49,506 nucleotides of DNA. Origin: Acidimicrobiia bacterium (lineage in GTDB: Bacteria; Actinomycetota; Acidimicrobiia; Spongiisociales; ZC4RG35). This document shows, in pieces, positions 402 through 16,721 of this stretch. Position numbers and translations under genes: made by a program. The stretch spans positions 1 through 49,506 of the forward strand of contig JAICGW010000006.1 of NCBI GenBank assembly GCA_025922945.1, given 5' to 3'. How positions within the stretch are numbered: position 1 is the stretch's first letter; each line of letters starts with the position of its first letter. The notes under the pieces were generated by a model. The model searched no databases, had not been told where the DNA came from, and saw only the letters and a program-made list of their open reading frames with translations.

Positions 402-453
402 GCGAACCCAGGGTTGGTAGGGCGGCTCTGCCTATCTACCAGCCCACAGAACG
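402..453 (+). repeat. 52-bp dispersed intergenic element, copy 1
   Basis: This stretch matches 16670-16721 on the opposite strand at 46 of 52 positions with no gaps. It starts one base after the stop of the DinB-like gene and ends 8 bp before the -10 (TACGCT, 462-467) of the cation transporter. It opens with GCGAACCCAGGGTT and contains the shared block GCCTATCTACCAGCCC. In this copy GGTAG (416-420) can pair with CTACC (436-440), with GGC/GCC extending the stem. Function is unknown. Confidence 0.85.
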
Positions 454-474
454 CATCCTCCTACGCTGCCGGTA

Positions 475-1398
475 ATGCAGCAGGGTTCCAAGAAGGCGAT
501 CGTCGCCGCGCTGGTTGCCAACTTCGGAATTGCCATCGCCAAAAGCGTGGGCTTCGTCTTGACCCGTTCGGCGGGGATGCTGGCCGAAGCCGGTCACTCC
601 CTTGCCGACACCAGCAACCAGGCGCTGCTGTTGCTCGGTGGTCGGCGGGCAGCCCGAGAAGCCGACGAGACGCATCCCTTCGGCTACGGCCGCGAGCGCT
701 ATTTCTGGGCCTTCGTCGTCGCCCTGGTGCTCTTCAGCATGGGCGGGCTCTTCGCTCTCTACGAGGGCATCGAGAAATTGCGACATCCTCACGCCACTGA
801 GAGCCTGGCGATCGCGATCGGGATCCTGATCGTCGCCATCATCCTCGAGACGTTCTCGCTTCGAACTGCGGTCCGCGAAGCCAACCACGTCAAGCCCGCT
901 GACGTTTCTTGGTGGAGATTCATTCGCACTTCGAAGTCGCCCGAACTGCCGGTGGTTTTGCTGGAGGATGTCGGGGCCGAGATCGGTCTCTTCCTCGCCT
1001 TGATCGGTGTCAGCCTGGCCGCCGCCACTGGTGACCCGCGCTGGGACGCGGTGGGGTCGATTGCCATCGGCATCTTGCTGGTGGCGATTGGCATCGTCCT
1101 CGCCATCGAAACCAAGGGACTGTTGCTCGGTGAGACGGCGTCACAAGATGTCATCGCCGCCATCTCGGCCAGCATCTCCGCCCAGCCCGAGGTCACGAGT
1201 CTCATTCACTGCCGCACCCAGCACATGGGGCCCGACGAGCTACTGGTCGGGGCGAAGGTGGAATTCAAACGCGAACTCGACTTTGCGGAGCTGGCGGCGG
1301 CCGTCGACCGAGTGGAAGGAGCCATTCGCGAGGCGGTGCCGAGCGCGGTGACGATCTATGTCGAGCCGGATCTGCGGCGAGCCGCCGGGGGCGAATAG
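475..1398 (+). CDS. Cation diffusion facilitator (CDF) family transporter
   Basis: A 307-residue inner-membrane protein of the usual CDF length. Family members export Zn2+, Fe2+, Mn2+ or similar ions in exchange for protons. An N-terminal hydrophobic block (about residues 8-32) is followed by AGHSLADT, whose His and Asp match the HxxxD metal-site motif of TM2. Further hydrophobic segments lie at about 80-105, 115-135, 160-185 and 190-215; a cytoplasmic C-terminal domain with a beta-alpha fold follows (about 220-300). The second site reads LLEDVGAEIG, acidic rather than His-containing, so Zn2+ preference is unsure. The -10 hexamer TACGCT (462-467) ends 7 bases before ATG and no Shine-Dalgarno sequence is present, so the mRNA is probably leaderless. 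The last 43 bases overlap the convergent thioesterase gene. Confidence 0.85.
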   Translation: MQQGSKKAIVAALVANFGIAIAKSVGFVLTRSAGMLAEAGHSLADTSNQALLLLGGRRAAREADETHPFGYGRERYFWAFVVALVLFSMGGLFALYEGIEKLRHPHATESLAIAIGILIVAIILETFSLRTAVREANHVKPADVSWWRFIRTSKSPELPVVLLEDVGAEIGLFLALIGVSLAAATGDPRWDAVGSIAIGILLVAIGIVLAIETKGLLLGETASQDVIAAISASISAQPEVTSLIHCRTQHMGPDELLVGAKVEFKRELDFAELAAAVDRVEGAIREAVPSAVTIYVEPDLRRAAGGE

Positions 1399-1790
1399 TT
1401 GCCGTGCGCCTGGGCAACCAGGCGAGCTTCATCGCCTTCCAGCCACATGTCGATCTGCCCATAGATGCGGGTCGACCCCACTCGCAGGAGCTGGGCTCGA
1501 CCGAGGACTGACGCTCCCACCGCGGGACGGAGGAACGAGATGGCGAGATCCGACGTGACCGCCATCGGCTCTAGCCCTACGACGGTGAAAGTGGCGAACC
1601 AGAGGGCGATGTCCGCCAACCCGAAAAGGGTCAGGCCCGAGACATACCCACCGGGGCGGAGGACGGCAGGATCGTGCTCCCAGCGAGCCAGGGCCGTGCG
1701 CTCGCCCAGTTCGATGCATCGGTACCCGCTGGAGTAGGCGGCCGGGAACTCCGACTCCACCAACTTGTTCACTTCCCCCGGCGAAATCAC
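1356..1790 (-). CDS. PaaI/DUF4442-like hotdog-fold thioesterase
   Basis: A 144-residue protein with the layout of single-domain hotdog thioesterases: RPGGYVSGLTLFGLADIALW is the hydrophobic central helix, followed by AVTSDLAISFLRPA and a strand-rich end. Family members hydrolyse acyl-CoA esters; the substrate here is unknown. I chose the GTG at 1790 rather than a longer start at 1820 because it forms a GTGA overlap with the stop of the upstream SDR gene and has GGGAG a few bases before it. It is the third gene of the coupled pgsA-SDR-thioesterase unit. Its 3' end overlaps the cation transporter gene by 43 bases. Confidence 0.7.
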   Translation of the reverse strand: MISPGEVNKLVESEFPAAYSSGYRCIELGERTALARWEHDPAVLRPGGYVSGLTLFGLADIALWFATFTVVGLEPMAVTSDLAISFLRPAVGASVLGRAQLLRVGSTRIYGQIDMWLEGDEARLVAQAHGNYSPPAARRRSGST

Positions 1791-2740
1791 ATCACTCCCT
1801 CTTTCTGCGCCCACTCCCACAAGCGGCCAAAGGTGACATCGGCCGATGTGTATTTGAGTCCTAGCTCGCGGCTGGCACGGGATCCGTCATACAAGTGTCC
1901 GTGCAGTATCGCTTTTGCCGATTCCCCGCAGATGGGGGCGGTCCGCCGAAGAACGCTGAACAACCCACCCACCACGAAACCGGCGATTCTCACCAAAGGA
2001 GGCGGGATATACGACACCCGGAGCGGTTGCGCAGTCACCGACTCAATCACCGATACCGCTTCCTGCGTCGTCATCGAGAACGAGTTGAGGACGTAGCGCT
2101 TTCCGGGCTCGCCACGGCTTCCGGCGAGCAGATGTCCGGCGGCGCAGTCATCGATGTCGACGATCGAGATCCGGGTGTCGACGATGGTTCGCAGCTTTCC
2201 GCTCATCAACTTGAGGAGGAGCCTCCCCGTTCCCGTGGCCCTGCCTGGACCCTGCACCGACGAGGGATTGACGATCACCACGGGCTGTCGGCCAAAGAGC
2301 TCCGTGAGCTGCTGCTCGGCCCGCCATTTGGATGCGGCGTAGCGACTGGGTAACGGGGCCCGCGGCACGGAGCTCTCATCGCCGATCTCGCCCTCGGCCT
2401 CCCCCAGCACGGCCGCCGAAGAGGTGTGGACTAGCAGTGCTCCGGCTTCGTAGGCGGCATCAGCGACGTTGCGGGTGCCGTCGACGTTGACTCTTTCCAT
2501 CAACGCGGGGTCGGAGCTACACATCTGATTCACCCCGGCGACATGGAAAACCGTTGTCACCCCATGGAAGGCCCTTCGCAGCGACGCCGGGTCGAGTACG
2601 TCGCCGGGGGCACGCTCCACCTCCGGAGGCAAGCCCTTGTCCGACCGAACCAACGCTCGGACCCTCCTTCCGTCAGCCAGGAGATGTCGCAAGACGGCGC
2701 CACCCACCGCGCCGGTCGCCCCGGTGATCGCAACCGTCAT
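1787..2740 (-). CDS. NAD(P)-dependent epimerase/dehydratase (extended SDR)
   Basis: A 317-residue extended short-chain dehydrogenase. TGATGAVGGAVLRHLL is the Rossmann dinucleotide-binding motif (GxxGxxG), and RYAASKWRAE supplies the catalytic Tyr and Lys (YxxxK). VVIVNPSSVQGPG matches the conserved segment after the active site. Length and motifs fit NAD-dependent epimerase/dehydratase or 3-beta-hydroxysteroid dehydrogenase-like proteins; the substrate cannot be assigned. The start codon overlaps the pgsA stop as ATGA, and the stop overlaps the thioesterase start, so the three are probably translated from one mRNA. The link to phospholipid synthesis is by position only. Confidence 0.85.
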   Translation of the reverse strand: MTVAITGATGAVGGAVLRHLLADGRRVRALVRSDKGLPPEVERAPGDVLDPASLRRAFHGVTTVFHVAGVNQMCSSDPALMERVNVDGTRNVADAAYEAGALLVHTSSAAVLGEAEGEIGDESSVPRAPLPSRYAASKWRAEQQLTELFGRQPVVIVNPSSVQGPGRATGTGRLLLKLMSGKLRTIVDTRISIVDIDDCAAGHLLAGSRGEPGKRYVLNSFSMTTQEAVSVIESVTAQPLRVSYIPPPLVRIAGFVVGGLFSVLRRTAPICGESAKAILHGHLYDGSRASRELGLKYTSADVTFGRLWEWAQKEGVM

Positions 2741-3300
2741 CTACTGGTGGCGTCCGTACGGCTCCCGATCACCATCTTGGAGAATGCTCCGAAGTAGCCC
2801 CAGGCGGAGGCGATCGTCACCAACACCGCCACCCACATCACCCACTGGTCGAGAAAGAAGGGTCCCCATCGATCGGGGAGGCGCATAAAGGCAAGGGCGA
2901 TGGCTCCATACTGGGCGGTGGCTTTTATCTTTCCCCAGGTCGAGGGCTTCACCATCCCCCCGCCGAGAGCGACCAACCCCCGCAGCCCCATGACGGCGAA
3001 CTCGCGCATCATGATGACCAGGGCCGCCCAGATGGAGACCCGCCCGATCGAGGTGAGGGCGAGGAGGGTGCCGGTGACGAGGAGCTTGTCGGCCGTGGTG
3101 TCGAGGAATGCGCCGAGGACCGACTCCACATGCCAGCGCCGAGCCAGATAGCCGTCGAGAAAGTCGGTGATCGCCGCCACGGTGAACAGGGCGGCGGCGT
3201 ACCCGAGGGCGTGTTCGATTCGATCCTGGGACCGGGTCAGGGCCATGATCGCAGGGACCACTAGAACCCGGCCAACCGCCAACCAATCGGGGAACGAGAT
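2737..3300 (-). CDS. pgsA: CDP-diacylglycerol--glycerol-3-phosphate 3-phosphatidyltransferase
   Basis: Makes phosphatidylglycerophosphate, the committed step to phosphatidylglycerol and cardiolipin, in the membrane. The full CDP-alcohol phosphotransferase signature is present: DGYLAR, eight residues, then G-x3-D-x3-D in GAFLDTTAD. Several hydrophobic segments follow, as in the family. The only standard start in frame is TTG at 3282, but it would remove the conserved amphipathic lead (ISFPDWLAVGRVLVVP), and no Shine-Dalgarno sequence precedes it. An AAGGAG at 3311-3306 lies 5 bases before the ATC at 3300, which I list as the likely start; the frame closes at TAG (3357-3355) with no ATG, GTG or TTG between. 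It overlaps the next gene (ATGA) and diverges from glpD. Confidence 0.85.
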   Translation of the reverse strand: MSFPDWLAVGRVLVVPAIMALTRSQDRIEHALGYAAALFTVAAITDFLDGYLARRWHVESVLGAFLDTTADKLLVTGTLLALTSIGRVSIWAALVIMMREFAVMGLRGLVALGGGMVKPSTWGKIKATAQYGAIALAFMRLPDRWGPFFLDQWVMWVAVLVTIASAWGYFGAFSKMVIGSRTDATSR

Positions 3301-3370
3301 GAGGGCTCCTTGCGCTTGCTGCCGGGCGGCGATCTTACCGAACGACCTCGATACCTAACCTTTTCGCCCG

Positions 3371-4960
3371 ATGCTCGCCCCCTCCTGGACCCGTGCCGAG
3401 CATCGCCGTCGACTGAGTGAGGCCGACTCTTTCGATGTCGCGGTCATCGGTGGAGGAGTGATCGGCTGCGGTGTGGCCCTCGACCTCATAACCCGGGGGT
3501 TTCGGGTGGCCCTTGTCGAGCAGGCCGATTGGGCCTCGGGTACGTCGGGGCGCTCCACCAAGCTTTTTCATGGCGGTATCCGCTACCTCCCCCATTTCCG
3601 CTTCCAGCTGGTCGCGGAGGGGCTGCGTGAACAGCGGGTGCTGGCCCGGATCGCCGACTACTTGTTTCAGACCCTCGAATTCGTGGTCCCGGTCTATGAC
3701 CAGCACGGTCTCGCCGACGCCCCCGCCTGGGCGGCCCGCGGCCGGCGAGCGTCGATTGCCCTCGGCGCCGGGCTCGCCATCTACGACCTCTTGGGAGGTT
3801 TCAATCGGCCCGGTGAACGGCATCGCCGGCTTGCGTTGTCGGAAGTTCGCCGCGCCGCTCCGCTCCTGCGCACCGAGGGCTTGCGGGGAGGCTTCGCCTA
3901 CTCCGACGCCCAAACCGACGACGCCCGACTGGTCATCGCCCTGGCGAGGACGGCGGTGCGTCACGGTTGCACGGCCGTCAATCGAATGCGGGCCCACCGA
4001 ATCGAGCCGGCTGAGGGCGGATTCGAGGTGGATCTAGTCGACGTGCTCAATGGTGAGCCCCTTCGGCTCCGAGCCCGGGCGGTAGTGGGAGCCACCGGTG
4101 CCTTCCGCCCTCCACCGCTGGGGGCGAAAGTGCAGCCGCGTTTCGTCCTCTCCAAGGGCGCTCATGTGATCCTGGCTGCCGAGTCGGTCGGGCTGGTCGA
4201 CCGGGCGATTGTGCTGCCCAAGACCGATGATGGGCGGGTTCTCTTTCTCATTCCCTGGGCCGGCCAAGCTCTGGTGGGAACCACCGACACCGCTTATGTG
4301 GACTCCCCCGCCCGCCCCGTTGCCACGGCCGATGACGTTGCATATCTGCTCGACCATATCCGGCGCTATCTGAGCGTCGACACCCTCAGTCCCGTTTCCA
4401 CTTTCGCCGGCCTCCGAGCACTGGCCGATGATGATGCCGACTCGACCGCCGAGGCTTCTCGCGAGCATGTGATAACCGAGCCCCAGCCCGGATATCTCGT
4501 CGTCGCGGGCGGAAAGCTCACGACCTACCGGCGCATCGCCGCCGAGGTGGCTGACACCGTCACTCGGCATCTCGATTCAAGGTCTAAGTCGCGAACGAAG
4601 AACGTGCTCCTGGTGGGTGCCGGAGGAAAGCCACGGGCGGGTGGGCTCGTCAATCGGTACGGATCTGAGGCCAGCTCGGTCGAGAAGATTCTCGGTGAAG
4701 TCAAAAAAGGCGACACCCTGCTGGGCGACGGAGTGACTTTCCTCGGAGAGGTGGGTCAAGCAGTTCGCCACGAATCCGCCGTTTCGATCGGCGATTTCGC
4801 CCTGCGACGGACCCGCTTGTCGCTGCTCTCGCGCGATCACGGTCGTGATGATGCGGCTGCCATTGCCGACGCGATGCAGGTGGAGCTGGGGTGGTCGGAG
4901 AGCGAGCGCGATCACCAGCTTTTGGCTTTTCAGCGCGAGCTCGAGGCGGAAGGGCTCTGA
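3371..4960 (+). CDS. glpD: Aerobic glycerol-3-phosphate dehydrogenase
   Basis: FAD enzyme that oxidises sn-glycerol-3-phosphate to dihydroxyacetone phosphate and feeds electrons to quinone at the membrane. 529 residues, normal for GlpD. VAVIGGGVIGCGVALDL (residues about 20-36) is the FAD Rossmann motif; ASGTSGRSTKLFHGGIRYL is the strongly conserved GlpD segment after it; GTTDTAY and VVAGGKLTTYR are the substrate/FAD-binding motifs toward the C-terminal domain. TAACCT (3356-3361) stands 9 bases before ATG with no Shine-Dalgarno sequence, suggesting a very short or absent leader. The stop codon abuts that of the convergent glpK with no base between, so the pathway's two enzymes face each other instead of sharing an operon. 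Confidence 0.95.
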   Translation: MLAPSWTRAEHRRRLSEADSFDVAVIGGGVIGCGVALDLITRGFRVALVEQADWASGTSGRSTKLFHGGIRYLPHFRFQLVAEGLREQRVLARIADYLFQTLEFVVPVYDQHGLADAPAWAARGRRASIALGAGLAIYDLLGGFNRPGERHRRLALSEVRRAAPLLRTEGLRGGFAYSDAQTDDARLVIALARTAVRHGCTAVNRMRAHRIEPAEGGFEVDLVDVLNGEPLRLRARAVVGATGAFRPPPLGAKVQPRFVLSKGAHVILAAESVGLVDRAIVLPKTDDGRVLFLIPWAGQALVGTTDTAYVDSPARPVATADDVAYLLDHIRRYLSVDTLSPVSTFAGLRALADDDADSTAEASREHVITEPQPGYLVVAGGKLTTYRRIAAEVADTVTRHLDSRSKSRTKNVLLVGAGGKPRAGGLVNRYGSEASSVEKILGEVKKGDTLLGDGVTFLGEVGQAVRHESAVSIGDFALRRTRLSLLSRDHGRDDAAAIADAMQVELGWSESERDHQLLAFQRELEAEGL

Positions 4961-6439
4961 TCAGACCCAGTCGAGCGTGCGCCTGACCGCCTGCCGCCAG
5001 CGGTCGACCAGGGCCTGGCGCCGATCCTCGGCCATCTCCGGCTCGAAGCGACGATCGACCTCCCAATTGGAGTCCAACTCCGAGACCGAGCTCCAAACCC
5101 CCTCTGCCAACCCGGCGGCGTAGGCCGCACCCAGGGCGGTGGTCTCCGCCACCACCGGTCGCACCACGGGTATCCCCAAGATGTCGGCTTGGAACTGCAT
5201 GAGGAGGTCGTTTCGCACCATGCCCCCGTCGACCCGCAGCTCCTGGAGAGCGATGCCCGAGTCAGCCCGCATCGCTTCCGCCACCTCCTGAGTCTGAAAG
5301 GCCGTGGCCTCCAAAGCAGATCGAGCGATGTGCCCACGAGTGGCGAAGCGGGTGAGACCGACGATTACGCCGCGGGCATCCGGACGCCAGTGGGGGGCAA
5401 ATAGCCCGCTAAATGCGGGCACGAGGTAGACGTCACCGTTGTCTTCAACCGAAGCGGCCAGTTTCTCCACTTCGGTCGCAGACTCGATCAGACCGAGGTT
5501 GTCCCGCAGCCACTGCACGAGTGAGCCGGCCACCGCCACCGATCCCTCGAGGGCATAGATCAACGGTCCCTCTTCCAGCCGGAAGGCGGCGGTGGTGAGC
5601 AATCCATGTTGAGAGGGGACCGGCGAGGCTCCGGTGTTGAGAAGCAGGAAGCATCCGGTCCCGTAAGTGTTCTTCGCCGCTCCCGACCCGAACCCGAGCT
5701 GGCCGAACAGTGCTGCCTGCTGATCGCCGAGGACGCCACTGATCGGGACCCCTTCGAGGGGTCCCGAGCCGAGGCCAACTCGCCCCGAGGAAGAAACAAT
5801 CTCCGGTAGCGAAGACGCCGGGATCTCCATGGCCTCACAGATCTCCTCGCTCCACGCCGCTGCGCCGAGCTCCATCAGGAGAGTCCGGGAGGCATTGGTG
5901 ACATCGGTGACATGACGACCCACCAGGTTGGAGACAATCCAGGCATCGATGGTGCCGAAGGCGAGGGCCCCGGACTTGGCGGCAGCGGCGACTGCCGGAA
6001 CTTCCTGCAAAAGCCAGGCGAGCTTGGGGCCCGAGAAGTAGGTGGCGAGGGGAAGGCCGGTGATCGGACGGAAGCGATCGGGCCCGTTCCCTTCCGCAAG
6101 CGCTCTGCAAATCGCGGCCGTGCGCGTGTCCTGCCAGACGATGGCATTGTGGAGGGGCAAGCCGGTCCGACGGTCCCAAGCGACCGTCGTCTCCCGTTGG
6201 TTGGTGATGCCAACCGCGGTGAGATCCTTCGCCGTCAAGCCTGCGTCGGCGAGGGCGCGCCCGATCACGCGCCAGATGCTCTCGATGATCTCGCCGGGGT
6301 CGTGTTCGACCCAACCCGGTCGCGGGAAGATCTGACGGTGCTCTTCCTGGCTCTGACCGACGATACGCCCGGAGTCGTCGAAGATGATGAATCGACTGCT
6401 GGTTGTGCCCTGGTCGATGGCGCCGACCAACGCGGTCAC
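4961..6439 (-). CDS. glpK: Glycerol kinase
   Basis: Phosphorylates glycerol with ATP to glycerol-3-phosphate in the cytoplasm, the substrate of the neighbouring GlpD. 492 residues, standard for the FGGY kinases. [16 protein letters not shown] is the N-terminal phosphate-binding motif; [20 protein letters not shown] and [20 protein letters not shown] are the two FGGY signatures; [11 protein letters not shown] belongs to the ATP site. The GTG start overlaps the stop of the upstream VOC gene as GTGA, with AGGAG about 10 bases before it. It is the last gene of rplY-pth-VOC-glpK. A perfect 10-bp inverted repeat with a 3-base loop lies inside the gene (5744-5766). Confidence 0.96.
5744..5766. repeat. 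10-bp perfect inverted repeat inside glpK
   Basis: CGGGACCCCT (5744-5753) and AGGGGTCCCG (5757-5766) are perfect complements around a TCG loop. The stem is GC-rich and lies within coding sequence, where it encodes part of the stretch Gly-Pro-Leu-Glu-Gly-Val-Pro. No T-run follows on either strand, so a terminator role is not supported; it may only reflect codon choice. Confidence 0.6.
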
Positions 6440-6837
6440 GCCGGAGGTTGCTCCTGGGGTGCAAACAGGTCGAAGTGGTTCCCATCGGGGTCGGCGATCG
6501 TCGCGTACCTCATCGACCAGGGAGCATCGAAGGGGGCTATCACGGTGGTTCCACCGATTCCGACCAGGAGGAGGTGGAGTCGATCTACTTCCGCCGGGCT
6601 CTCGCAGAGAAACGCGAGCGAGGTTCGTTGGCTCCCCCCGTGGGGTCGCTCCCAGTCAGAGAACGATTTCATCATGTCCTCGGTGTCGAGCATCACGCGA
6701 ATTCCACCGGGGGTCACGGCTTCGACGTGACCCTCGGTCTCCGAGCCAGCGGGAAAGTCGAGACCGAGGTGTCGGTAAAACGCGGTCGAGTCAGCCATCG
6801 AGGAAACCACTATTCCGATTGCATCGAGTCGGGCCAT
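6436..6837 (-). CDS. VOC-superfamily (glyoxalase/bleomycin-resistance-like) protein
   Basis: A 133-residue protein with the paired beta-alpha-beta-beta-beta modules of the vicinal oxygen chelate superfamily. [20 protein letters not shown] opens the first module and [16 protein letters not shown] closes the second, the latter carrying the usual metal-ligand position. Members include glyoxalases, extradiol dioxygenases and resistance proteins; nothing here settles which. It sits between pth and glpK, 15 bases after the pth stop, and its own stop overlaps the glpK start (GTGA), so it may influence glpK translation by coupling. Confidence 0.8.
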
Positions 6838-6852
6838 GGAGGGATTCTGGCA

Positions 6853-7422
6853 CTACCCGGGCCGGCGATGCGCGGCCAACTCCTGGGCCCGGGCCGGGTC
6901 TTCCAGCCAGCGCTCGGCTACGTCCGCCGCGTCCTCGACCAGAAGGTCGGCTTCGCCTCGTTCGGCCTTGGTAAAGGGGCGGAGGACGTGGTCAGCGGCC
7001 TCCCGGCTGCCAGGCGGTCGGCCCACTCCCAGCTTCAGCCGGGCGAAATCGGGGTGTCCGAGATGAGACTCGATTGAGCGGATGCCGTTGTTGCCACCGC
7101 TCCCCCCACCGATCTGGAGGCGCAATCTTCCCAAGGCGAGGTCGATGTCATCGTGGACCACGAGCAGATCGCTGGCCGCCACCTTGTAGTACGAGAGGAT
7201 TCCGGCCACCGCCCGTCCGGAGTCGTTCATGAACGTGAGCGGGGTGGCAAGAATCAGATCGCGACCGGACAATCGGGCGAGCTCGGCCCGTACCCGCAAG
7301 GGCCCCCGCTTGAGCTTTACATCAAAGCGTCGCGCCAGACTCGAGACGACCTCGAATCCCAGATTGTGACGGGTGCCGACGTAGGAGGCTCCGGGATTCC
7401 GGAGCCCACAGATGACCGGCAT
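6853..7422 (-). CDS. pth: Peptidyl-tRNA hydrolase
   Basis: Releases tRNA from peptidyl-tRNA that drops off the ribosome; an essential cytoplasmic enzyme. 189 residues, usual length. RHNLGF carries the catalytic His, TPLTFMNDSGRAV the conserved substrate-binding segment, and VVHDDIDLALG the Asp-containing motif; GGSGGNNGIRSI is also diagnostic. The N-terminal GLGNPG of most Pth proteins reads GLRNPG here. The ATG follows the rplY stop with no intervening base, and a GAGGAG at the end of rplY serves as ribosome-binding site, so the two are translationally linked. Confidence 0.95.
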   Translation of the reverse strand: MPVICGLRNPGASYVGTRHNLGFEVVSSLARRFDVKLKRGPLRVRAELARLSGRDLILATPLTFMNDSGRAVAGILSYYKVAASDLLVVHDDIDLALGRLRLQIGGGSGGNNGIRSIESHLGHPDFARLKLGVGRPPGSREAADHVLRPFTKAERGEADLLVEDAADVAERWLEDPARAQELAAHRRPG

Positions 7423-8097: not shown

Positions 8098-8141
8098 AAC
8101 TAATTCTCCTTGGGGAAAAGGGGGGCGAGGAGCCGCCGAGA

Positions 8142-8147
8142 ATTATA
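8142..8147 (-). promoter_or_regulatory. -10 element of the rplY operon
   Basis: TATAAT reads leftward at 8147-8142, an exact match to the housekeeping -10 consensus. No good TTGACA lies 17 bases upstream. The start codon of rplY is at 8097, so the leader would be about 38 bases and carries AAGGAG. Confidence 0.6.
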
Positions 8148-8193
8148 CGCCCTCGTTCTTGCGTAGGAATCGTGGCCACAAGCGCGGCGATTT

Positions 8194-8808: not shown

Positions 8809-8814
8809 CGGCGC

Positions 8815-8831
8815 ACGCTAGGAGATAGCCT
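8815..8831. promoter_or_regulatory. Back-to-back leaderless promoters in a 29-base divergent spacer
   Basis: Leftward TAGCGT (8820-8815) is followed by 6 bases and the ATG of the hydrolase; rightward TAGCCT (8826-8831) is followed by 6 bases and the GTG of the YeiH-type gene. Only GGAGA separates the two hexamers. The spacer is an imperfect palindrome whose ends read GCGCAC and GTGCGC. Any -35 contacts would lie inside the other gene's coding sequence. Confidence 0.6.
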
Positions 8832-8837
8832 CCTTTA

Positions 8838-9800
8838 GTGCGCACCCGCCTTCCCGGCATTTCGATGGCGGTGGCACTGGGGGTGGGAGCGATTGCCCTC
8901 GGTCGGGTTTTGGAGCCGGTGTCGGCCCTGATCATCGCCCTCATCCTGGGGTTCGGCGTCGGCAATCTGGTTGGACACGAGCTCGGGCTCGGACCTGGCT
9001 TCCAACTCGTCGCTCGTCACCTGCTCCGGGCCGCGGTCGTCTTGCTTGGGGCCCGGCTCTCCTTCGGTGACCTCGCGGCGATTGGAGGACCGGGACTGGC
9101 GGTGGTGGCCGTGACGGTGGTGGCAACCTTCTTCGGCGCGCAGCTGCTTGGTCGGCTCCTCGGTGTCAGCCGCGATCTTTCGCTTCTGATCGGCACTGGC
9201 TACGCCATTTGTGGGGTGTCAGCCGTGGCCGCCATGAACGGTGTTGTCGCCGCCGAAGACGAGGAGGTCACCTACGCCATCGGTCTGGTCACCATGGCCG
9301 GCAGCCTCTCGATCCTGGCCCTGCCCCTGATCGCTCAGTGGCTGGGCATGGAGCCCGCCGCGTTCGGCAGCTGGGTAGGTGGCGCGGTCCACGACGTGGC
9401 CCAAACTGTGGCCGCCGCCTCGGCTGCGCCACCACCGGCGCTCGAGGCGGCCATTGTCGTCAAATTGACCCGAGTCGCCCTCTTGGCTCCCCTCGTGGTA
9501 GCGGTAGCAATCTCGAGACGGCGAGTCGGTTCCACGACCCGCCAGCCCCCCTTGCCCCTGTTTGTCCTCGGGTTTCTGGCGCTGGTGGCGATGCAATCGG
9601 CGGGGCTTCTCTCAGCCGCCGTGACCGAGTTGATTCGAAGCGTCGAGGTGACGGCGTTCACCATCGCCCTTGTCGGGGTTGGCGGCGGCGTCGACATCTC
9701 TCGGCTGCGCTCCCTCGGCGGCCGGCCATTGCGACTCGGCCTCTTGGCCTGGGTTTTGGTTTCGGCGGTTGCACTGGCAGCGGTCTCCCTGACCGCTTGA
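8838..9800 (+). CDS. YeiH/UPF0324-family putative sulfate exporter
   Basis: A 320-residue polytopic membrane protein. About nine to ten hydrophobic segments alternate through its length. LLRAAVVLLGARLSFGDLAA, GTGYAICGVSAVAAMNGVV and GSWVGGAVHDVAQTVAA are the conserved blocks of the YeiH/Cons_hypoth698 family, members of which have been proposed to export sulfate produced from taurine or cysteate; the role is not proven for most. No sulfur genes are nearby. The GTG start has TAGCCT 6 bases upstream and no Shine-Dalgarno sequence; an ATG at 8865 is a weaker alternative. Confidence 0.85.
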   Translation: MRTRLPGISMAVALGVGAIALGRVLEPVSALIIALILGFGVGNLVGHELGLGPGFQLVARHLLRAAVVLLGARLSFGDLAAIGGPGLAVVAVTVVATFFGAQLLGRLLGVSRDLSLLIGTGYAICGVSAVAAMNGVVAAEDEEVTYAIGLVTMAGSLSILALPLIAQWLGMEPAAFGSWVGGAVHDVAQTVAAASAAPPPALEAAIVVKLTRVALLAPLVVAVAISRRRVGSTTRQPPLPLFVLGFLALVAMQSAGLLSAAVTELIRSVEVTAFTIALVGVGGGVDISRLRSLGGRPLRLGLLAWVLVSAVALAAVSLTA

Positions 9801-9815
9801 AAAAATCCGGTTGCG

Positions 9816-10694
9816 CTAGTGGACCAGAGCCTGTCCTTGGTCCCGCACTCCTACCAGCCAGTCCCTCACCGTCAGCGCCTGGGGATGGATTGCCCGGGTT
9901 GCCCCAGTATCGGTCGAAACCGTGCCCATCCGCAGCCAGCGCCACATCGGGATGACGTCCCGTTTGGTAAAGCGGTCGAATAACCACATCGGCATTGGAA
10001 ACGTTCGCGGATCCTTTCCCATGATCTCGCGGTACAGAGCGCGGCACTCCCGAAGCGATCGCACATCGCCGGCCAGGGGCAGGTCCTGGCCGATGTAGAC
10101 CTCGGGCTGGGCCAAGACCGTCTGCGCAATGACGCCGACGTCATCGACCGCCAGCCAGGGGATGGGTCGATCCTCTCCGGTGAGCGGGGGCCAGATCCTC
10201 CAGGTCCCTACCGCTGGGTAGTAACCCTTGTCGGTCATTAGCTCCATGAACGCGCGGGGACGGAGGCTGGTGAAGGGCAAGTCGAGCCGCTTCATATGCT
10301 CCTCGACCTCGAGCTTGGCCTCCCAGGAAGGAATCCCGGTGCCTCTTTCACCGGTGCCGGCCGAGGCGTAGACCAGATGTCGCGCGCCGACCTCCTTGGC
10401 AACGTCGGCCACATTCCGCCCCTGTGCGACCTCGCGCTCAAAGCCACTGATGAGCCCGTTCTGGACGCTGAATATCGCTTGAGCACCCTCGAATGCCCTT
10501 CGCAGCGATGACGGATCGTCCATGTCGCTCCGAACCACGTCGGCCCCCAACCTGCCGAGGGCTCTTGCGGACTCTCGGTCCGGTCGCCGGGTGAGCGCCC
10601 GAACCTTCCAACCCGATCGCAGGAGCGAGCGCGCCACGGCGCCGCCCTGACGACCTGTGGCGCCACAGACCGCGACGATGTTCTCAGCCGGCAA
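9816..10694 (-). CDS. NmrA-like NAD(P)-binding atypical SDR
   Basis: A 292-residue protein. VAVCGATGRQGGAVARSLL is the N-terminal dinucleotide-binding motif with the GATGxxGG spacing typical of NmrA/HSCARG-type proteins. The Tyr/Lys pair of classical SDRs is not evident, again as in NmrA, whose members sense the NADPH/NADP state or act as reductases. SLRPRAFMELM and PWLAVDDVGVIA match conserved family blocks. The listed start is TTG with GAGGA about 10 bases before it; no ATG or GTG lies closer. It stands alone, convergent with the YeiH-type gene and divergent from the solute-binding gene. Confidence 0.8.
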   Translation of the reverse strand: MPAENIVAVCGATGRQGGAVARSLLRSGWKVRALTRRPDRESARALGRLGADVVRSDMDDPSSLRRAFEGAQAIFSVQNGLISGFEREVAQGRNVADVAKEVGARHLVYASAGTGERGTGIPSWEAKLEVEEHMKRLDLPFTSLRPRAFMELMTDKGYYPAVGTWRIWPPLTGEDRPIPWLAVDDVGVIAQTVLAQPEVYIGQDLPLAGDVRSLRECRALYREIMGKDPRTFPMPMWLFDRFTKRDVIPMWRWLRMGTVSTDTGATRAIHPQALTVRDWLVGVRDQGQALVH

Positions 10695-10753
10695 CGAGTC
10701 CTCGAGTAGCTACCGGGGCGATCGTAGCTTGCGGGTACCTACCATCTTTGGGC

Positions 10754-11680
10754 GTGAGCGGTTGGCGTGCGGGGTTGGTCGCCCTCGCCCTCGGCGGTGT
10801 GATCCTGGCTATTGGCTGGGTGATCGGGCGCGATGCTCCCACTCCCGGACCCGGCACCAGCGTCCCGGTGGCCGAAGCCGACGTGACCCTCGCCTGCACG
10901 CAAACCTTCTCACTCGTATGTGGCGAACTGGCCAGCCGGTTCGGTCTGGCCAGCACCAGCTACACCCTGGGCTCTGAGATCGCCTCCGACACGGTCGTAA
11001 TCGGCTTCGCCGGCGACCTCCCGGCCGAAGCGATTTCCTTCGCTCGGAGCCCGATCGCGATCGCGATTTGGGCCGAGAAGGCTCCACGTTTGCAGCAAGC
11101 CTGTGGGCTGGTGGATCCCGCTTGTCTGGTCGGCGAAGCCGGCACCAGCTGGGAGGAACTCGGAGGCTCCCCCGATTGGGGGACGTTGCGACTCGGGCTG
11201 GCAGATCCCGAGACGGGGATCGCCGACCTCGAAGCATGGAAGCTCATCGCCGACCAGCAACCTCCACCCGGCTTCCGCCAGTTCGTGCCCCTCACCAGCC
11301 AGGATGGCGGCAGCCTGCTGCGAGACCTGGTCCTCTTCTCCTCGCGGGCTGACGCGGTGGTGTCCTCTGAGGTCGCAATCGCCGCGCAGCTGGCCAATGC
11401 CCGGGCGAGGGCAGGCCGGCTTGAGGTTTACTACCCCGAGCCCACCCCCTATCTCCCGGTTGCCGCCCTCGGCGAGGGGCGGGCCGCCAACTCTTTCGTC
11501 GAAAGCTTGAGCGGTCCCGAAATTCAGGCTCTGCTCGGTAGCCTGGGTCTTCGCCCCCTGACCGGCGAGCCCATCGACCTGCTCGAAGACCTGGGTGAGC
11601 CCGGTACCGAGACGGCCGGGGCAAGCCAAGCAGAGAGACCCGCATTGGTAGCGAGTTGGGACACACTGATAGGAGCATGA
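10754..11680 (+). CDS. Membrane-anchored periplasmic-binding-like protein
   Basis: 308 residues. Residues about 4-25 (GLVALALGGVILAIGWVIG) form one transmembrane anchor without a lipobox Cys; a Pro/Gly-rich linker follows, and the rest resembles a type-2 solute-binding fold. ISFARSPIAIAIWAEKA is like the hinge segment of molybdate/sulfate-type binding proteins. Ligand unknown. I prefer GTG at 10754 over TTG at 10748 because TACCAT (10740-10745) lies 8 bases before the GTG. The stop overlaps the start of the next gene (ATGA). It opens the operon with the vWA lipoprotein, which carries its own binding-protein domain, suggesting the two extracytoplasmic proteins work together. Confidence 0.6.
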   Translation: MSGWRAGLVALALGGVILAIGWVIGRDAPTPGPGTSVPVAEADVTLACTQTFSLVCGELASRFGLASTSYTLGSEIASDTVVIGFAGDLPAEAISFARSPIAIAIWAEKAPRLQQACGLVDPACLVGEAGTSWEELGGSPDWGTLRLGLADPETGIADLEAWKLIADQQPPPGFRQFVPLTSQDGGSLLRDLVLFSSRADAVVSSEVAIAAQLANARARAGRLEVYYPEPTPYLPVAALGEGRAANSFVESLSGPEIQALLGSLGLRPLTGEPIDLLEDLGEPGTETAGASQAERPALVASWDTLIGA

Positions 11681-13461
11681 TGATCACTCGACGGGCGCGT
11701 CTCCGCTGGCCTCTGGCCTTGCTGGCCCTGGTAGCCGCGTGTACCTCCGGCGGCCCGCTGACAACCGACGGGTCCGGTGTCGTCGTGCCCGGCGGTTGCG
11801 AGGAGGTACCGATCGCCACCTCCCCCGAGAAGTTCACCTTGTTCACATCGCTCGCCGAAACATTCAATGCCACCGAGACCGAGTTCGAAGGCGAATGCGC
11901 GGTGATCACGGTCTACCGAGCGTCCTCAGGGGCGGCGGCTCGCATGCTGGCCGAGGGCTGGCCCGAGGATGGGTCTGCCGGACCCCTGCCCGTGATCTGG
12001 TCCCCTGCCGCCAGCACCTGGGGTGCGATCGTCAACGAGCGTCTTGCTGCCCGGGGCGAGGCGCCGATCGCCAACGACTTTCAACGGGTGATGATCACTC
12101 CTCTGGTCCTGGGGATGCCGCGCCCGATGGCAGAAGCCCTGGGCTGGCCGGAAACCGACGTGGGCTGGGCCGACGTCCTCCAGCTCGCCTCCGACCCCGA
12201 GGGGTGGGGAGCCCTCGGCCATCCCGAGTGGGGCGACTTCCGGCTCGGCAAGACCAATCCCAACTTCTCGACCTCGGGCCTGGCGGCCACCGCCGCGACC
12301 TACTACGCCGGCACCGGAAAGACCTCGGGGCTGACCATATCCGATCTCGATGATCCCGAAGTCCTCGAGTTCGTCCGCGGCGTGGAGGCAGCCACTGTCC
12401 ACTACGGCGACACCACCCTCACCTTTCTCGACAACATGTATCGCGCCGATCAAGAGGGCCGCGGACTGACCTACGCCTCGGCGGTGGCGGTGGAAGAAGT
12501 GTCGATCATTGCCTACAACCGGGGCGATCCCGCCGATACCGGCACCCCGGGTCCGCCGCCCCGGGTGCCCCTCGTCGCCATCTATCCGGTAGAAGGGACG
12601 CTCTTCTCCGACAATCCGGCCTACATCCTCGATGCCCCCTGGGTCACCGACGTCGCGCGCCAGGCCGCCACCGCTTTCCGCTCGTTTGTGATCGACGACG
12701 CCGCCAACCAGCAGCGAGTTCTCGAGTTCGGTTTTCGCCCGGGGAATCCGTCGGTGGCGATCGGGGATCCGATCAATTCGGCCAATGGCCTCAATCCCAA
12801 CAAGCCAGACACCGAGCTCGCCGTTCCCGATCCGGAAGTGCTCACCGCCCTGCTCGACAGCTGGGAGGAGAATCGCAAGACCGCCCGGGTGATCATGCTT
12901 TTCGACGTCTCCGGTTCGATGGCGGACCTCGCCGGAGGGGGGGACACCAAGCTCGCATTGGCCAAACAGGCCGTCCTCTCCGGCCTTGACAATTTCAAGC
13001 CCGACGACGAGATCGGCCTCTGGATCTTCTCGACCAACCTCGACGGCGACAACGACTACATCGAGGTGATCCCCCCGGCTCCCCTCGAGGACATTCGCCC
13101 GCAGCTCGAGGAATCCATCAACGGGCTCGTGGCCGACGGCGGCACCGGCCTTTACGACTCCACGCGGGCTGCGGTGCAGGCGGTCCGCGACGGCTTCGAT
13201 CAAACCAAGATCAACGCGGTGCTGTTGCTCACCGACGGGATGTGCGATGACAACCCGCCCGGCTGCGAGCTCGACCCGCTGCTCGGTTTTCTGGGATCGA
13301 ACGAGCGTGACGTCGTGCGAGTGTTTCCGGTGGCGTACGGAGAAGATGCCTCGGTGGAAGAGTTGACCGCCATCGCCAATGCGTCGGCGGCCCGCCTTTA
13401 TCAAGCGACCAACCCGCTAACCATCGAAGCGGTCTTCCAACAAGTGATCTCGAACTTCTGA
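11677..13461 (+). CDS. Lipoprotein with solute-binding-like domain and vWA domain
   Basis: 594 residues. The N-terminus MMITRRARLRW, a hydrophobic stretch and LVAAC form a lipoprotein signal, so the protein should be anchored outside the membrane. Residues about 40-370 look like an extracellular solute-binding domain (VIWSPAASTWGAIV; later YPVEGTLFSDNPAYILDAPW). Residues about 404-590 are a von Willebrand A domain with a complete metal site: DVSGS (D410, S412, S414), Thr in DGGTGLYDST, and Asp in LLLTDGM. Actinobacteria are known to have proteins with this architecture; their function is unsettled. AGGAG (11671-11675) precedes tandem ATGs at 11677 and 11680; either could be used. Confidence 0.8.
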   Translation: MMITRRARLRWPLALLALVAACTSGGPLTTDGSGVVVPGGCEEVPIATSPEKFTLFTSLAETFNATETEFEGECAVITVYRASSGAAARMLAEGWPEDGSAGPLPVIWSPAASTWGAIVNERLAARGEAPIANDFQRVMITPLVLGMPRPMAEALGWPETDVGWADVLQLASDPEGWGALGHPEWGDFRLGKTNPNFSTSGLAATAATYYAGTGKTSGLTISDLDDPEVLEFVRGVEAATVHYGDTTLTFLDNMYRADQEGRGLTYASAVAVEEVSIIAYNRGDPADTGTPGPPPRVPLVAIYPVEGTLFSDNPAYILDAPWVTDVARQAATAFRSFVIDDAANQQRVLEFGFRPGNPSVAIGDPINSANGLNPNKPDTELAVPDPEVLTALLDSWEENRKTARVIMLFDVSGSMADLAGGGDTKLALAKQAVLSGLDNFKPDDEIGLWIFSTNLDGDNDYIEVIPPAPLEDIRPQLEESINGLVADGGTGLYDSTRAAVQAVRDGFDQTKINAVLLLTDGMCDDNPPGCELDPLLGFLGSNERDVVRVFPVAYGEDASVEELTAIANASAARLYQATNPLTIEAVFQQVISNF

Positions 13462-13465
13462 GCCA

Positions 13466-14236
13466 ATGACCAACCGCCCCGGCAGCAGTCGCATGGGAAG
13501 CGTCTTCCGCTACAACCCGGTCACCCGGAAGAGCAGGCGCTTGCTCCGGGCGATGTTCAGCCCGGCCGGGGTCGTGGCCACGGCCGGATTAATCGGCGGC
13601 GGACTAGCCCTCGGTCTCTCGGCTCCGTTCGTGGCCGGGGCGGCGGTGGTCGGGTTTGTCGCCTCGGCTTTGATGCACCTTCGCGACCCCAAGCTCGCTG
13701 CTTCGATGGTGGCTCCTGAATTCGACCGGGACCTGAGCCGCCTCGACGCTGAGCACCTCCCGCTGATGGTGAGCGGCCTCGAAGCCCGGGACCGCCTGGA
13801 ACATGCCATGGAGTCTTGGACCGGGGGTGAGAACGAGGGAATGATGGCGCGGGTGACCGAGACTCTCCGCAAGCTCTACGACTCCGTTCTCTGGGTGCAG
13901 CGGGCGGACAAGTTTCTGTCGACCGTCGACGAGCGTCGCCTACTGGCAAGGCTCAGCGAGCTCTCGCCGGGACCTCTGCGCGAGGAGATGGAAGCCCAGG
14001 TTCGCGAGGTGACCAACATTCGCGCCCGTCGCGAGGAGGCCGTCTCGCGAGTCGTCGCCACGACGACTGGCATCGACACGCTGGCCGTCAAGGCACATTC
14101 GATAGCCCTCACTTCCACCGGACCCGATCAGACCACGGACGAAGTGGCCGCCCTTCGCGCCGAACTCAACGCCTACGCCCGCGGACTCGAAGAGATCGAG
14201 GAGCACCTGCAAGACGCCCTCCCCCAGATCTCGTGA
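13466..14236 (+). CDS. Membrane-anchored coiled-coil protein of unknown function
   Basis: 256 residues that I cannot place in a named family. A basic N-terminus (NPVTRKSRRLLRA) is followed by two close hydrophobic segments, about residues 34-50 and 53-68, that could form a hairpin in the membrane, then a long charged helical region (about 75-250) rich in Glu, Arg and Leu with heptad-like spacing, ending in LEEIEEHLQDALPQIS. It lies 4 bases after the vWA gene and overlaps pgl as GTGA, so it belongs to the operon. The architecture suggests a cytoplasmic helical rod tethered to the membrane, possibly the inner-face partner of the two extracytoplasmic proteins; that is inference. Confidence 0.6.
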   Translation: MTNRPGSSRMGSVFRYNPVTRKSRRLLRAMFSPAGVVATAGLIGGGLALGLSAPFVAGAAVVGFVASALMHLRDPKLAASMVAPEFDRDLSRLDAEHLPLMVSGLEARDRLEHAMESWTGGENEGMMARVTETLRKLYDSVLWVQRADKFLSTVDERRLLARLSELSPGPLREEMEAQVREVTNIRARREEAVSRVVATTTGIDTLAVKAHSIALTSTGPDQTTDEVAALRAELNAYARGLEEIEEHLQDALPQIS

Positions 14237-14919
14237 ACACCGTCGTCTTCGACGATGCTCGGGCTCTGGTTCATGGTGCCGCCGATCACCTGGCGGCTTT
14301 GATCACCGCCGCCCCTGGTCCCCGCGTTTCCGTGGGCCTGGCCGGCGGATCGACGCCGGCGGCGATCTACCTTCAGCTACGGCAACGCGAGGTCGACTGG
14401 AGCCGGGTCGACTTCTGGCTGTCAGATGAGAGATGGGTCCCCTGGCATGACCAGGATTCCAACGGGAAGATGGCTGAGGAGAACCTGGTGGGCCATGTCT
14501 CGGGCCGCTACCTGAGGCCGAGATGGGCTCCTTGGCTCGAGCCGGGCGAGTCGGCCACCCAATACGAGGATGAGTTGCGCTCGCTTCATACTGGCGAGCA
14601 TCCGCCGGACTTGATCCTCCTCGGAATGGGTGATGACGGTCATTGCGCTTCGCTCTTCCCCGGCACGGAAGCGCTCTCGGTGATCGATCGTTGGTTCGTC
14701 GCCAACTTCGTTCCCTCCCTCGATGTCTGGCGCCTCACCTCCACCTTTCCTCTCCTCGACGTCGCCCGGCAGATCGTCTTCATGATCGGAGGCGCGTCCA
14801 AGGCCGAAGCAGTCGCCCGGGTCGCCGGTGGTGAAGACCTCCCCACCACCCGGGTAAGCAAGGGATCGGCTCCAGTGACGTTCCTCCTCGACCGGGCGGC
14901 GGCTGCCCTCATCGCATGA
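14233..14919 (+). CDS. pgl: 6-phosphogluconolactonase
   Basis: Hydrolyses 6-phosphogluconolactone to 6-phosphogluconate, the second step of the oxidative pentose phosphate pathway. 228 residues, normal for the DevB/SOL type. VSVGLAGGSTPAAIYLQL is the phosphate-binding region, WLSDERWVPWHDQDSNGKM the active-site signature and LILLGMGDDGHCASLFPGT the second one with its His. The GTG start overlaps the upstream coiled-coil gene (GTGA) and the stop overlaps the next gene (ATGA). The other genes of this pathway, zwf and gnd, lie about 29 kb away. Confidence 0.93.
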   Translation: MNTVVFDDARALVHGAADHLAALITAAPGPRVSVGLAGGSTPAAIYLQLRQREVDWSRVDFWLSDERWVPWHDQDSNGKMAEENLVGHVSGRYLRPRWAPWLEPGESATQYEDELRSLHTGEHPPDLILLGMGDDGHCASLFPGTEALSVIDRWFVANFVPSLDVWRLTSTFPLLDVARQIVFMIGGASKAEAVARVAGGEDLPTTRVSKGSAPVTFLLDRAAAALIA

Positions 14920-15764
14920 ACCGGGCTTGGTGGCTGGGCCTGGTTTTGCTGTGGGCCTGCAGCGGCGAAGTCGATCCCACGACGACCACGATCACGGTCA
15001 CCACTTCCGGTTCGACCACCGCTGAGGCGGAATCCGAGTTCCTGCGCCGAATCGATTCCATCGGCGACTTGCCGGTGACCGTATACGCCCCGCCATCGGT
15101 AGGGCCATATCCGGTAGTGGTCCTCTTCCACGGAGGCGGCTGGTTTGGTGGTGCCCCGCTCTCGACTGCCCCGCTGGCCGAGTTCCTGGCTTCCGAGGGC
15201 ATCGTGGTCTTCAACTCGACCTACCGCACCCAAACCGGGGGTTATCCCGAGAGCTTCGACGACGTCGCCTGCGCGGTCCGATACGCCCGCGCCAACGCCA
15301 GCAACTACACGAGCGCCGAGGGGCCGGTCATCCTCGCCGGTCATTCGGCCGGGGCCCATCTGGCTTCGGTGGTAGCGCTGGCCGGTGACGAGTTTGGGAA
15401 CGGTTGTCCGGTCGAGGAGACGGCAACGGTGGATCGCTTCATCGGCCTCGCCGGCCCTTACGATCCGACCTTGTATCGACAGGTGCTGCCGGCGTTTTTT
15501 GGTACCCGTTTCGAGAACGACCCTGGCCCCTGGGAGGCTGGTTCGGCCTATTCGTATCTCGGCGACAACCCGGGACTCGAGATCCTGCTCATGCACGGCG
15601 AAGCCGACGAGTTGGTACCGATCAGCTCGACCCGGCTATTCGCCGATGCCCTGGCAGAAGCCGGGTACCGCGTCGAGATGGCCGCGGTGGCAAAGGCGCA
15701 TCATCAGGACCTGCGGGACCCCAGTGTCGTTGGAGACGCCGTCGTCAGATTCGTGAGTCAGTAA
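14916..15764 (+). CDS. Secreted lipoprotein alpha/beta-hydrolase (BD-FAE/HSL-like)
   Basis: 282 residues. MNRAWWLGLVLLWAC is a short lipoprotein signal with the lipobox Cys at 15, followed by a Thr-rich linker. The hydrolase domain has VVVLFHGGGWFGG (HGGG oxyanion motif of the hormone-sensitive-lipase class), AGHSAGAHLAS (catalytic Ser in GHSAG), LLMHGEADELVP (Asp) and AKAHHQDL (His). It should act on esters outside the membrane; the substrate is unknown. Its start overlaps pgl (ATGA), making it the last gene of the 10754-15764 operon, and its end overlaps the convergent glycosylase gene by 7 bases. Confidence 0.82.
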   Translation: MNRAWWLGLVLLWACSGEVDPTTTTITVTTSGSTTAEAESEFLRRIDSIGDLPVTVYAPPSVGPYPVVVLFHGGGWFGGAPLSTAPLAEFLASEGIVVFNSTYRTQTGGYPESFDDVACAVRYARANASNYTSAEGPVILAGHSAGAHLASVVALAGDEFGNGCPVEETATVDRFIGLAGPYDPTLYRQVLPAFFGTRFENDPGPWEAGSAYSYLGDNPGLEILLMHGEADELVPISSTRLFADALAEAGYRVEMAAVAKAHHQDLRDPSVVGDAVVRFVSQ

Positions 15765-16645
15765 GAAGCGAAAGAGCGCAGCGGCTGCCGGGGGCCAAAG
15801 GCGGGAGCATGACCAAGCAGTGAGATGAGGCGGGCGACGCGGCCCCGCTGAGGTCGGAACTGTTCGAGAAGATCAACCATTTCTTGGTCGGTGCCCCGTG
15901 GTCGACCAGTGAGGTGCCAGGCGATCATGTTCTTGAGGTGGTAGTCACCCACCGAGAGAGCATCGGGATCGCCGTGACTCACCGCCACCGTCTCGGCCGA
16001 AGTCCACGGACCGATCCCCGCAATTCGGTCCAGCCAGGCACTCGCCTCTTTCGGACCAACTGCCCCGAGGGCCTCGATGCGATCTGCTTGACGAGCCGCC
16101 CTCAGCAACGTGTCGGCCCGCCGTTTTTCGATTCCCAACGGGTGGAGGACGAAATAGGTTGCGCCGGCGAGCCGCTCCGGATCGGGGGGAAGCCGCAGCG
16201 GTGCACCTCCGGCAGGTGCGGGACCCGGGGCGAGATCGGAGAAGCGGCGCCGGAGCATCTTGAGACCGTGGCCCGCTTCCTTCCCCGTCACCTTCTGGGT
16301 GATGATGGCGTTCGTCAGCGCTTCGAAGACCGAGCCCGTCTTCCCCATCCGGAGCCCGGGGTGACTGCGCCTGAGTTCTGAGACCAGGGGATGGTCGGTC
16401 CGCAGATCTGCGGGCCGGTCGTCGCCGCCGAACAGTCCCCACATTGACTCGAGCGCCTTGCTGGCTCCGGGACCGAATGCCCGCCCTTCGACCCCCGCAA
16501 CGCTCCGGCGGATGTGGATCGTGGCCGGGCCCTCGTCGGTCCGCATCGGCCGCCACCATCCATCGGAACGAAAGTAACCGGGCAAATAGGAGAGGGTTCG
16601 CCGGAGATCGAGGCGGAACTCGATGGGAATCGTGAGCGCTTCCAC
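15758..16645 (-). CDS. AlkA-type DNA-3-methyladenine glycosylase (HhH-GPD)
   Basis: Excises alkylated bases from DNA in base excision repair. 295 residues with an N-terminal AlkA-like domain (about 1-95) and an HhH-GPD domain (about 100-290). FEALTNAIITQKVTGKEAG is the family start of the catalytic domain; LDRIAGIGPWTSAETVAV is the helix-hairpin-helix; LSVGDYHLKNMIAW carries the catalytic Asp. GTG start, with TAGCGT (16660-16655) 9 bases upstream and no Shine-Dalgarno sequence. The second copy of the 52-bp element lies just upstream. AlkD-like glycosylase is also encoded here (47729-48409), giving two alkylation-repair enzymes in the window. Confidence 0.85.
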   Translation of the reverse strand: MEALTIPIEFRLDLRRTLSYLPGYFRSDGWWRPMRTDEGPATIHIRRSVAGVEGRAFGPGASKALESMWGLFGGDDRPADLRTDHPLVSELRRSHPGLRMGKTGSVFEALTNAIITQKVTGKEAGHGLKMLRRRFSDLAPGPAPAGGAPLRLPPDPERLAGATYFVLHPLGIEKRRADTLLRAARQADRIEALGAVGPKEASAWLDRIAGIGPWTSAETVAVSHGDPDALSVGDYHLKNMIAWHLTGRPRGTDQEMVDLLEQFRPQRGRVARLISLLGHAPAFGPRQPLRSFASY

Positions 16646-16669
16646 GGCTCGACGACGCTAGCCCTCCTC

Positions 16670-16721
16670 CGTTCTGGGGGCTGGTAGATAGGCGGTACCG
16701 CCCTGCGAACCCTGGGTTCGC
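16670..16721 (-). repeat. 52-bp dispersed intergenic element, copy 2
   Basis: Read leftward from 16721 this matches 402-453 at 46 of 52 positions, without gaps. It begins directly after the stop of the truncated ALDH gene and ends 9 bp before the -10 (TAGCGT, 16660-16655) of the alkA-like gene, the same arrangement as copy 1. In this copy GCGAACC and GGTTCGC form a perfect 7-bp stem around CAG, and GGCGGTACCGCC is a perfect palindrome. Confidence 0.85.

Follow-up and report, generated by a model that had tools for sequence, protein, structure and literature searches.

Why does the same short sequence stand twice behind a stop codon in one stretch of DNA? The window that we analysed is a stretch of 49,506 nucleotides from an Acidimicrobiia bacterium (contig JAICGW010000006.1), and an earlier sequence-only reading had noticed in it a 52-bp element in two copies, at 402-453 on the forward strand and 16670-16721 on the reverse strand. 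Both copies are present and agree at 46 of 52 positions without gaps. The match had been held not to be due to chance, and this proved right, since a search with a 24-nt half-element, allowing up to three mismatches, gave exactly these two matches in the window, while 100 shuffles gave none. We found that the element belongs to a hairpin family whose sites turn over between sister species, which brackets a gene and pairs with its cognate units within each genome; the bracketing recurs with unrelated hairpins. In our judgement, this is likely a mobile DNA hairpin family with a dedicated nuclease that joins AbiEi to a Vsr-like PD-(D/E)XK domain. The bracketed nuclease is probably the dedicated partner of the hairpins, as comparison of their sequences suggests.

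A hairpin family with constant feet

The home genome (G000) is an Acidimicrobiia-type metagenome-assembled genome (MAG) of 2.56 Mb in 179 contigs. A pattern search of the whole genome found 10 copies of the 3' half of the element and 64 matches of the 5' half, with both strands counted and palindromes included. The covariance model R1 gave 78 matches at E≤0.1, a few of which are palindromic double matches, so that about 70 copies are present. Most copies have the same length (exactly 51 nt in 71 of 81 copies aligned from two genomes) and the same layout, GCGAACCC(A/T)-GGGTT-nnn-(stem-loop-stem)-nnn-AGCCC-ACAGAAC. The feet GCGAACCCA and ACAGAAC are constant in 43 aligned copies. There is hardly any variation in these feet and in the GGGTT/AGCCC pairs, while the upper stem varies with compensatory change. 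In alignment A1 we counted 52 double-change cells against 25.7 in shuffled alignments, and 105 against 46.5 in alignment A2, to which other genomes had been added. A2 had a covariation score of 0.353, whereas shuffles gave 0.161 and slid partners did not exceed 0.116.

The two window copies had been reported to fold differently, from which it was suggested that DNA sequence rather than RNA structure may be conserved. Each single sequence does have its own fold, but across the family the hairpin is kept by covariation. Compensatory change maintains the stem, whereas a fixed sequence is confined to the ends. The alternative fold GCGAACC/GGTTCGC was tried as the conserved structure, and its covariation was no higher than that of shuffles.

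The outer stem contains a T.G wobble (T13.G42, pair 13-42 of model R1; 411-415/441-445 in the window), which is retained in 41 of 43 copies and also in genome G013. The same position is C-G in G089 and G043, and some cognate hairpins elsewhere, such as that of G114, are perfect. Nicking by the Vsr-like domain at a T.G mismatch was considered and rejected as a general mechanism, given the C-G pair in G089/G043 and the perfect hairpin in G114. On the bottom strand the wobble becomes an A.C mismatch, which could set which strand folds.

The R1 matches are spread patchily, being found in 35 of 99 relatives. A sister genome of the same genus (G001) has 58 copies; within genus g21 the numbers were 50 vs 12, within genus g33 27 vs 2, and many genomes have 0. 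A scan of GTDB contigs with the exact pattern returned MAGs, nearly all of them named Acidimicrobiia or actinobacteria. A plasmid or viral origin was rejected because the element had no match in plasmids or viral contigs; the nuclease homologs on plasmids and two phages are weak and partial protein matches. Nearly all copies are solo, with rare doublets in G000 at C1:30045-30097 and C126:2978-3064. In the latter (L060) a truncated copy ending CCTATCT is fused directly to a complete copy, as if one of them had taken the place of the rest of the other. Short tandem arrays of the element, with a period of about 60-70 bp, occur in some relatives (L080, 90-197; L067; JAMBLL01 and JAMBLJ01).

The gene context of 44 G000 copies was taken from mechanical gene calls. 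Convergent genes flank 17 of the copies; the neighbours of 10 are co-oriented on the plus side and those of 7 on the minus side, while those of 8 are apparently divergent. One or both ends of the element typically have a stop codon 0-10 nt away, and the element may be oriented either way relative to it. A stop triplet was present within the 10 nt ahead of the element in 50 of the 81 copies from two genomes, against a background of 14%. Ahead of the element, G000 and G001 both have a loose C-W-W-W-Y-T, which may belong either to the target or to the element. The copies are not linked to promoters. The -10 hexamer of a next gene, described 8-9 bp downstream of both window copies, is therefore not general, since only 10 of the 44 copies have co-oriented genes on either side and no promoter is expected for the 17 between convergent genes, and a regulator site tied to such a hexamer can be rejected on gene orientation across the genomic copies. 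The other suggestion of the sequence-only reading, a multi-copy intergenic element resembling repetitive extragenic palindromes (REPs) or miniature inverted-repeat transposable elements (MITEs) with a conserved place after stop codons, was borne out by the whole-genome search that it had proposed, in which both the further copies and their adjacency to stop codons recurred.

Complete units, cognate pairing and turnover

Outside the window, some elements form complete units of about 1.05 kb, in which an inverted pair about 1 kb apart, with the GCGAACCC end outward, surrounds a single gene of about 300 codons. G000 has three such units (C4, C49 and C92), and G001 has C84 as well as C96, whose gene is disrupted; bracketed homologs of this kind were found in about 12 genomes, including further genomes of the same order. 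The C96 gene (G001:C96:56506-57556; L163, L207) carries an in-frame stop and frame changes, and about ten solos of the C96 type persist. No second gene lies between the hairpins of a unit, hence there is no adjacent AbiEii nucleotidyltransferase toxin. The home genome, to which this search was confined, has no Y1 transposase of the RAYT kind (PF01797), while 5 of 14 control genomes were positive.

The encoded protein of about 300 aa combines an N-terminal AbiEi-type winged helix-turn-helix with a C-terminal Vsr-like PD-(D/E)XK nuclease. In 24 homologs, Pfam family PF18741 was matched in all and PF13338 in 21, and the AbiEi models of PADLOC matched all 24. The residues E204, D234, E245-x-D247, H252, D261 and R277 are invariant among them. 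The nuclease profile matched an endonuclease-like structure (3hrl, E 5.5e-6) and, weakly, a 'mobile intron protein' (3r3p, E 0.02). Identity to the C4 protein is 63% for C49 and 60-61% for C92, so the three units represent long-standing lineages and not recent copies.

The two hairpins of one unit usually carry the same unit-specific stem, so solos could be typed by their stems. We excluded false regex matches and one outlier and counted the unambiguously typed solos. All 41 typed solos of G000 fit units of G000 (C92 32, C49 5, C4 4), and the 33 of G001 fit its own units (C84 23, C96 10). One G001 stem group, CCGTG/CACGG, has no unit that we could find, and some of its members were counted as C84 or as the C4 type of G000. 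Solos with this stem are L150, L154, L156, L158, L160, L162, L165, L166, L176 and L181; their unit gene may have disappeared from the genome or be absent only from the draft assembly. Units C4 and C84 are orthologous, with the same location and 65% identity between their proteins. Their stems nevertheless differ, and solos follow the unit of their own genome. The same is seen at two orthologous solo sites, where the feet are conserved and the stems are of different genome-specific types. To judge from these stems, the hairpins evolve in concert with their units.

The bracketing is also seen beyond the R1 hairpins. For distant homologs without R1-type hairpins we tested the left and right flanks for any inverted repeat with a score of at least 17. 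Such a repeat was found at 24 of 55 loci (16 of 27 within the order and 8 of 28 in other classes), compared with 0 of 293 position-shifted controls. Most of these repeats fold to hairpins, some of them perfect, and the sequences are unrelated between units. We then joined 12 hairpins into two queries and searched them blind in 11 and 8 genomes. All 12 matched solely the genome with the cognate gene, and 10 were also dispersed there. Counted with the unit ends, the distinct sites numbered about 40 in G231, about 25 each in G013 and G050, 22 in G348, 18 in G114, 17 in G327, 11 each in G015 and G232, 7 in G061 and 6 in G104, while G010 and G048 had just the bracketing pair. An inner foot AGAAC stands beside some otherwise unrelated hairpins (L204, L217, L259 and L267, with CAGAA, ACAGAACGG, ACAGAACGGG and ATAGAAC), and it may be a recognition tag common to these hairpins, comparable to GTAG in REPs. 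Homologs of the nuclease, which are AbiEi-DUF559/MTES_1575 proteins of Actinomycetota, occur in 116 of the 297 genomes sampled. For many full-length ones outside the order (L256-L258, L260, L264-L266, L268-L271, L273-L276 and others) no flanking inverted repeat was detected, and these may be domesticated or part of another system.

The sites themselves turn over between the sister species. When about 55 sites of G000 and 40 of G001 were compared by their flanks, about three were in common. At one clean empty site G000 has TAG-cc-CTA, with 2 nt between convergent stops, and G001 has an element between the same stops. This filled site argues for insertion. No target-site duplication is visible at this single empty site; the sister genome is only about 75% identical, so the borders of the element are uncertain. 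Both genomes also contain pairs of copies that differ at just 1-3 of the 51 nt although their flanks are unrelated, and two G001 solos each differ by 1 nt from an end of unit C84. The genome-specific stems at old sites, in turn, argue for conversion.

The two window copies and their neighbours

Both window copies are solos with a stem of the C92 type. Copy 1 (402-453, forward strand; 70.2 bits with model R1) comprises the 51 nt and a G at 453 that is common but not invariant. Its outer stem is formed by GGGTT at 411-415, which includes the T of the wobble, and AGCCC at 441-445. The TGA stop of a DinB_2-like gene (398-400, forward strand) ends 1 nt ahead of it (...TTTTGA-c-GCGAAC), and a cation efflux gene follows. 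Copy 2 (16670-16721, reverse strand; 63.5 bits) has GGGTT at 16708-16712 and AGCCC at 16678-16682. It begins directly at the TAA stop of an aldehyde dehydrogenase gene (16722-16724, reverse strand; ...CTTTAA-GCGAAC), and on its other side lies the gene of an AlkA-like protein without a Pfam match at 1e-5. The start of the element 0-1 base past an upstream stop, as originally described, thus holds for both copies. Since the upper stem of copy 2 is degenerate, its 5' palindrome GCGAACCCAGGGTTCGC folds instead. No Rfam family was matched anywhere in the window.

For neither copy does the orthologous gene of G001 carry an element; the aldehyde dehydrogenase gene there ends in TGA with no element behind it. 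In G008 the ortholog of this gene is followed by an unrelated, near-perfect large hairpin, CGTTTTCGCGCGGG...CCCGCGCGAAAACG (L143, G008:C87), which means that hairpins of different families have occupied one site.

Candidate explanations and known systems

From these comparisons we infer the role of the nuclease in moving the hairpins, its place of cleavage and the rejoining of the DNA. The scattered solos, including both window copies, would be non-autonomous derivatives of complete units. The sequence of the stem would let the protein recognise its cognate hairpin, with the DNA single-stranded or extruded as a cruciform, and the protein would cleave near the hairpin foot. Host repair or replication could then copy the hairpin to a new site or overwrite an old copy, and new copies would survive mainly within a few bases past stop codons. 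We hold evenly balanced the broader proposal that these are transposable elements of a new class, common throughout Actinomycetota, in which the AbiEi-PD-(D/E)XK fusion would be the sole enzyme, reading its cognate stem and seeding non-autonomous hairpins. Mobilisation would then come from a nuclease that has no strand-transfer chemistry of its own.

Several points weigh against a mobile family with its own nuclease. All the evidence is comparative, and no excision, insertion or cleavage by the protein was observed. PD-(D/E)XK hydrolases alone do not join DNA. No target-site duplication is evident, which leaves it uncertain exactly where the moved unit begins and ends. About half of the tested homologs have no detectable flanking hairpin, so the protein family is not always in a unit. 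The CCGTG/CACGG subfamily of G001, a draft MAG, is without an identified unit, and G095, also a draft MAG, has 13 elements and no nuclease homolog that we could find.

Two of these kinds of case, some homologs without hairpins and the G095 elements without a detected homolog, together with the lack of direct proof of nuclease action, would fit an explanation in which some other, unrecognised transposase moves the hairpins and the AbiEi-nuclease gene is cargo, a passenger between two copies as in a composite transposon. We consider this unlikely. Across different classes, at least 12 unrelated hairpin families bracket genes of this one protein family, and each is restricted to the genome of its cognate gene, whereas a passenger would not track unrelated hairpins; moreover, the units hold this one gene only and the home genome has no Y1 transposase. 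More compatible with a mobile family, and in our view possible though doubtful as the main process, is a homing variant in which the nuclease cuts old sites and gene conversion overwrites them, so that replacement rather than transposition to new sites would prevail. The two orthologous positions with agreeing ends and each genome's own stem type, the orthologous C4/C84 units whose different stems are followed by the solos of each species, and the weak match to 3r3p point in this direction, but the gain at the empty 2-nt spacer and the near-identical copies at unrelated sites also need new insertion.

AbiEi antitoxins bind inverted repeats to autoregulate (PMC7319586) and each unit has one hairpin upstream of its gene, so the hairpins might be operators of an AbiEi-like DNA-binding protein. 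The dispersed copies would then make up a regulon or help to organise the chromosome, and the nuclease domain would be incidental. This is very improbable, because a second, inverted hairpin lies downstream of the gene, the solos stand past stop codons and between convergent genes and not at promoters, the sites are not conserved between sister species, and the nuclease residues are invariant. We give still less credence to non-mobile bidirectional terminators or 3'-end stabilisers of mRNA kept by selection. The hairpin structure and the location directly past stops and in convergent pairs would suit them, but there is no T-tract, since in 43 copies the constant ACAGAAC comes after the stem, and at C27:4828 an apparent separate hairpin-plus-T terminator lies behind the element in both genomes. 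A terminator needs neither a fixed 51-nt sequence nor constant unpaired feet, and copy turnover and genome-specific stems also speak against this function.

In the open-access literature we found no prior description of the hairpin-nuclease pairing, of the element sequence, of DUF559 proteins linked to palindromes or transposition, or of AbiEi joined to DUF559. AbiEi-DUF559/MTES_1575 proteins are common in Actinomycetota and are annotated as antitoxin-like or unknown. If a mobile hairpin family with its own nuclease is the right reading, many unexplained genes and intergenic repeats would gain one explanation. REP-like systems would then have arisen at least twice with unrelated enzymes. The spread of REP-like repeats would become a testable question, and the stem-specific pairing would offer a natural series of nucleases with differing hairpin specificities.

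Among known systems, type IV toxin-antitoxin AbiE shares the N-terminal AbiEi domain, but here AbiEi is fused to a nuclease and the unit holds no AbiEii toxin. Vsr-like homing endonucleases such as 3r3p have a distantly similar nuclease domain and possibly share the overwriting of sites, whereas the units described here are intergenic, have their own hairpin ends and are not in an intron or intein. MITEs and their DDE insertion sequences also consist of short non-autonomous copies and a larger unit with inverted ends around a gene; our unit has no DDE transposase but one gene (PF13338 and PF18741), and a target-site duplication was not seen. IS200/IS605 elements are likewise mobile, with terminal hairpins and no obvious target-site duplication, but the present units lack a Y1 transposase and their ends are inverted copies of one hairpin instead of distinct left and right ends.

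The closest likeness is to REP/REPIN-RAYT systems, which are dispersed palindromes with one diverged enzyme gene per repeat group, the enzyme being bracketed by its own repeats (PMC2817692, PMC3116915, PMC3733652). In both, short palindromes occur outside genes in tens of copies, one dedicated gene has inverted copies beside it, and there are several groups per genome in which single-copy, diverged enzyme genes are each paired with their own repeats. They differ in the enzyme, which here is AbiEi with a Vsr-like PD-(D/E)XK domain and not a Y1 HUH transposase, in the foot, since 43 aligned copies have no GTAG or CGTC tag but constant feet, a variable stem and a length of 51 nt, and in the arrangement, as our copies are mostly singlets and doublets are usual in REPINs. 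CGTC-tagged REPs are REP-like hairpins without a known dedicated transposase (PMC3733652); the present family lacks their tag and has a candidate dedicated enzyme. Since the Y1 enzyme is absent from the home genome and the foot tag from the aligned copies, the family is not a member of REP/RAYT although it appears to work like one, and it is best read as a REP/RAYT-like mobile hairpin system that its nuclease would mobilise.

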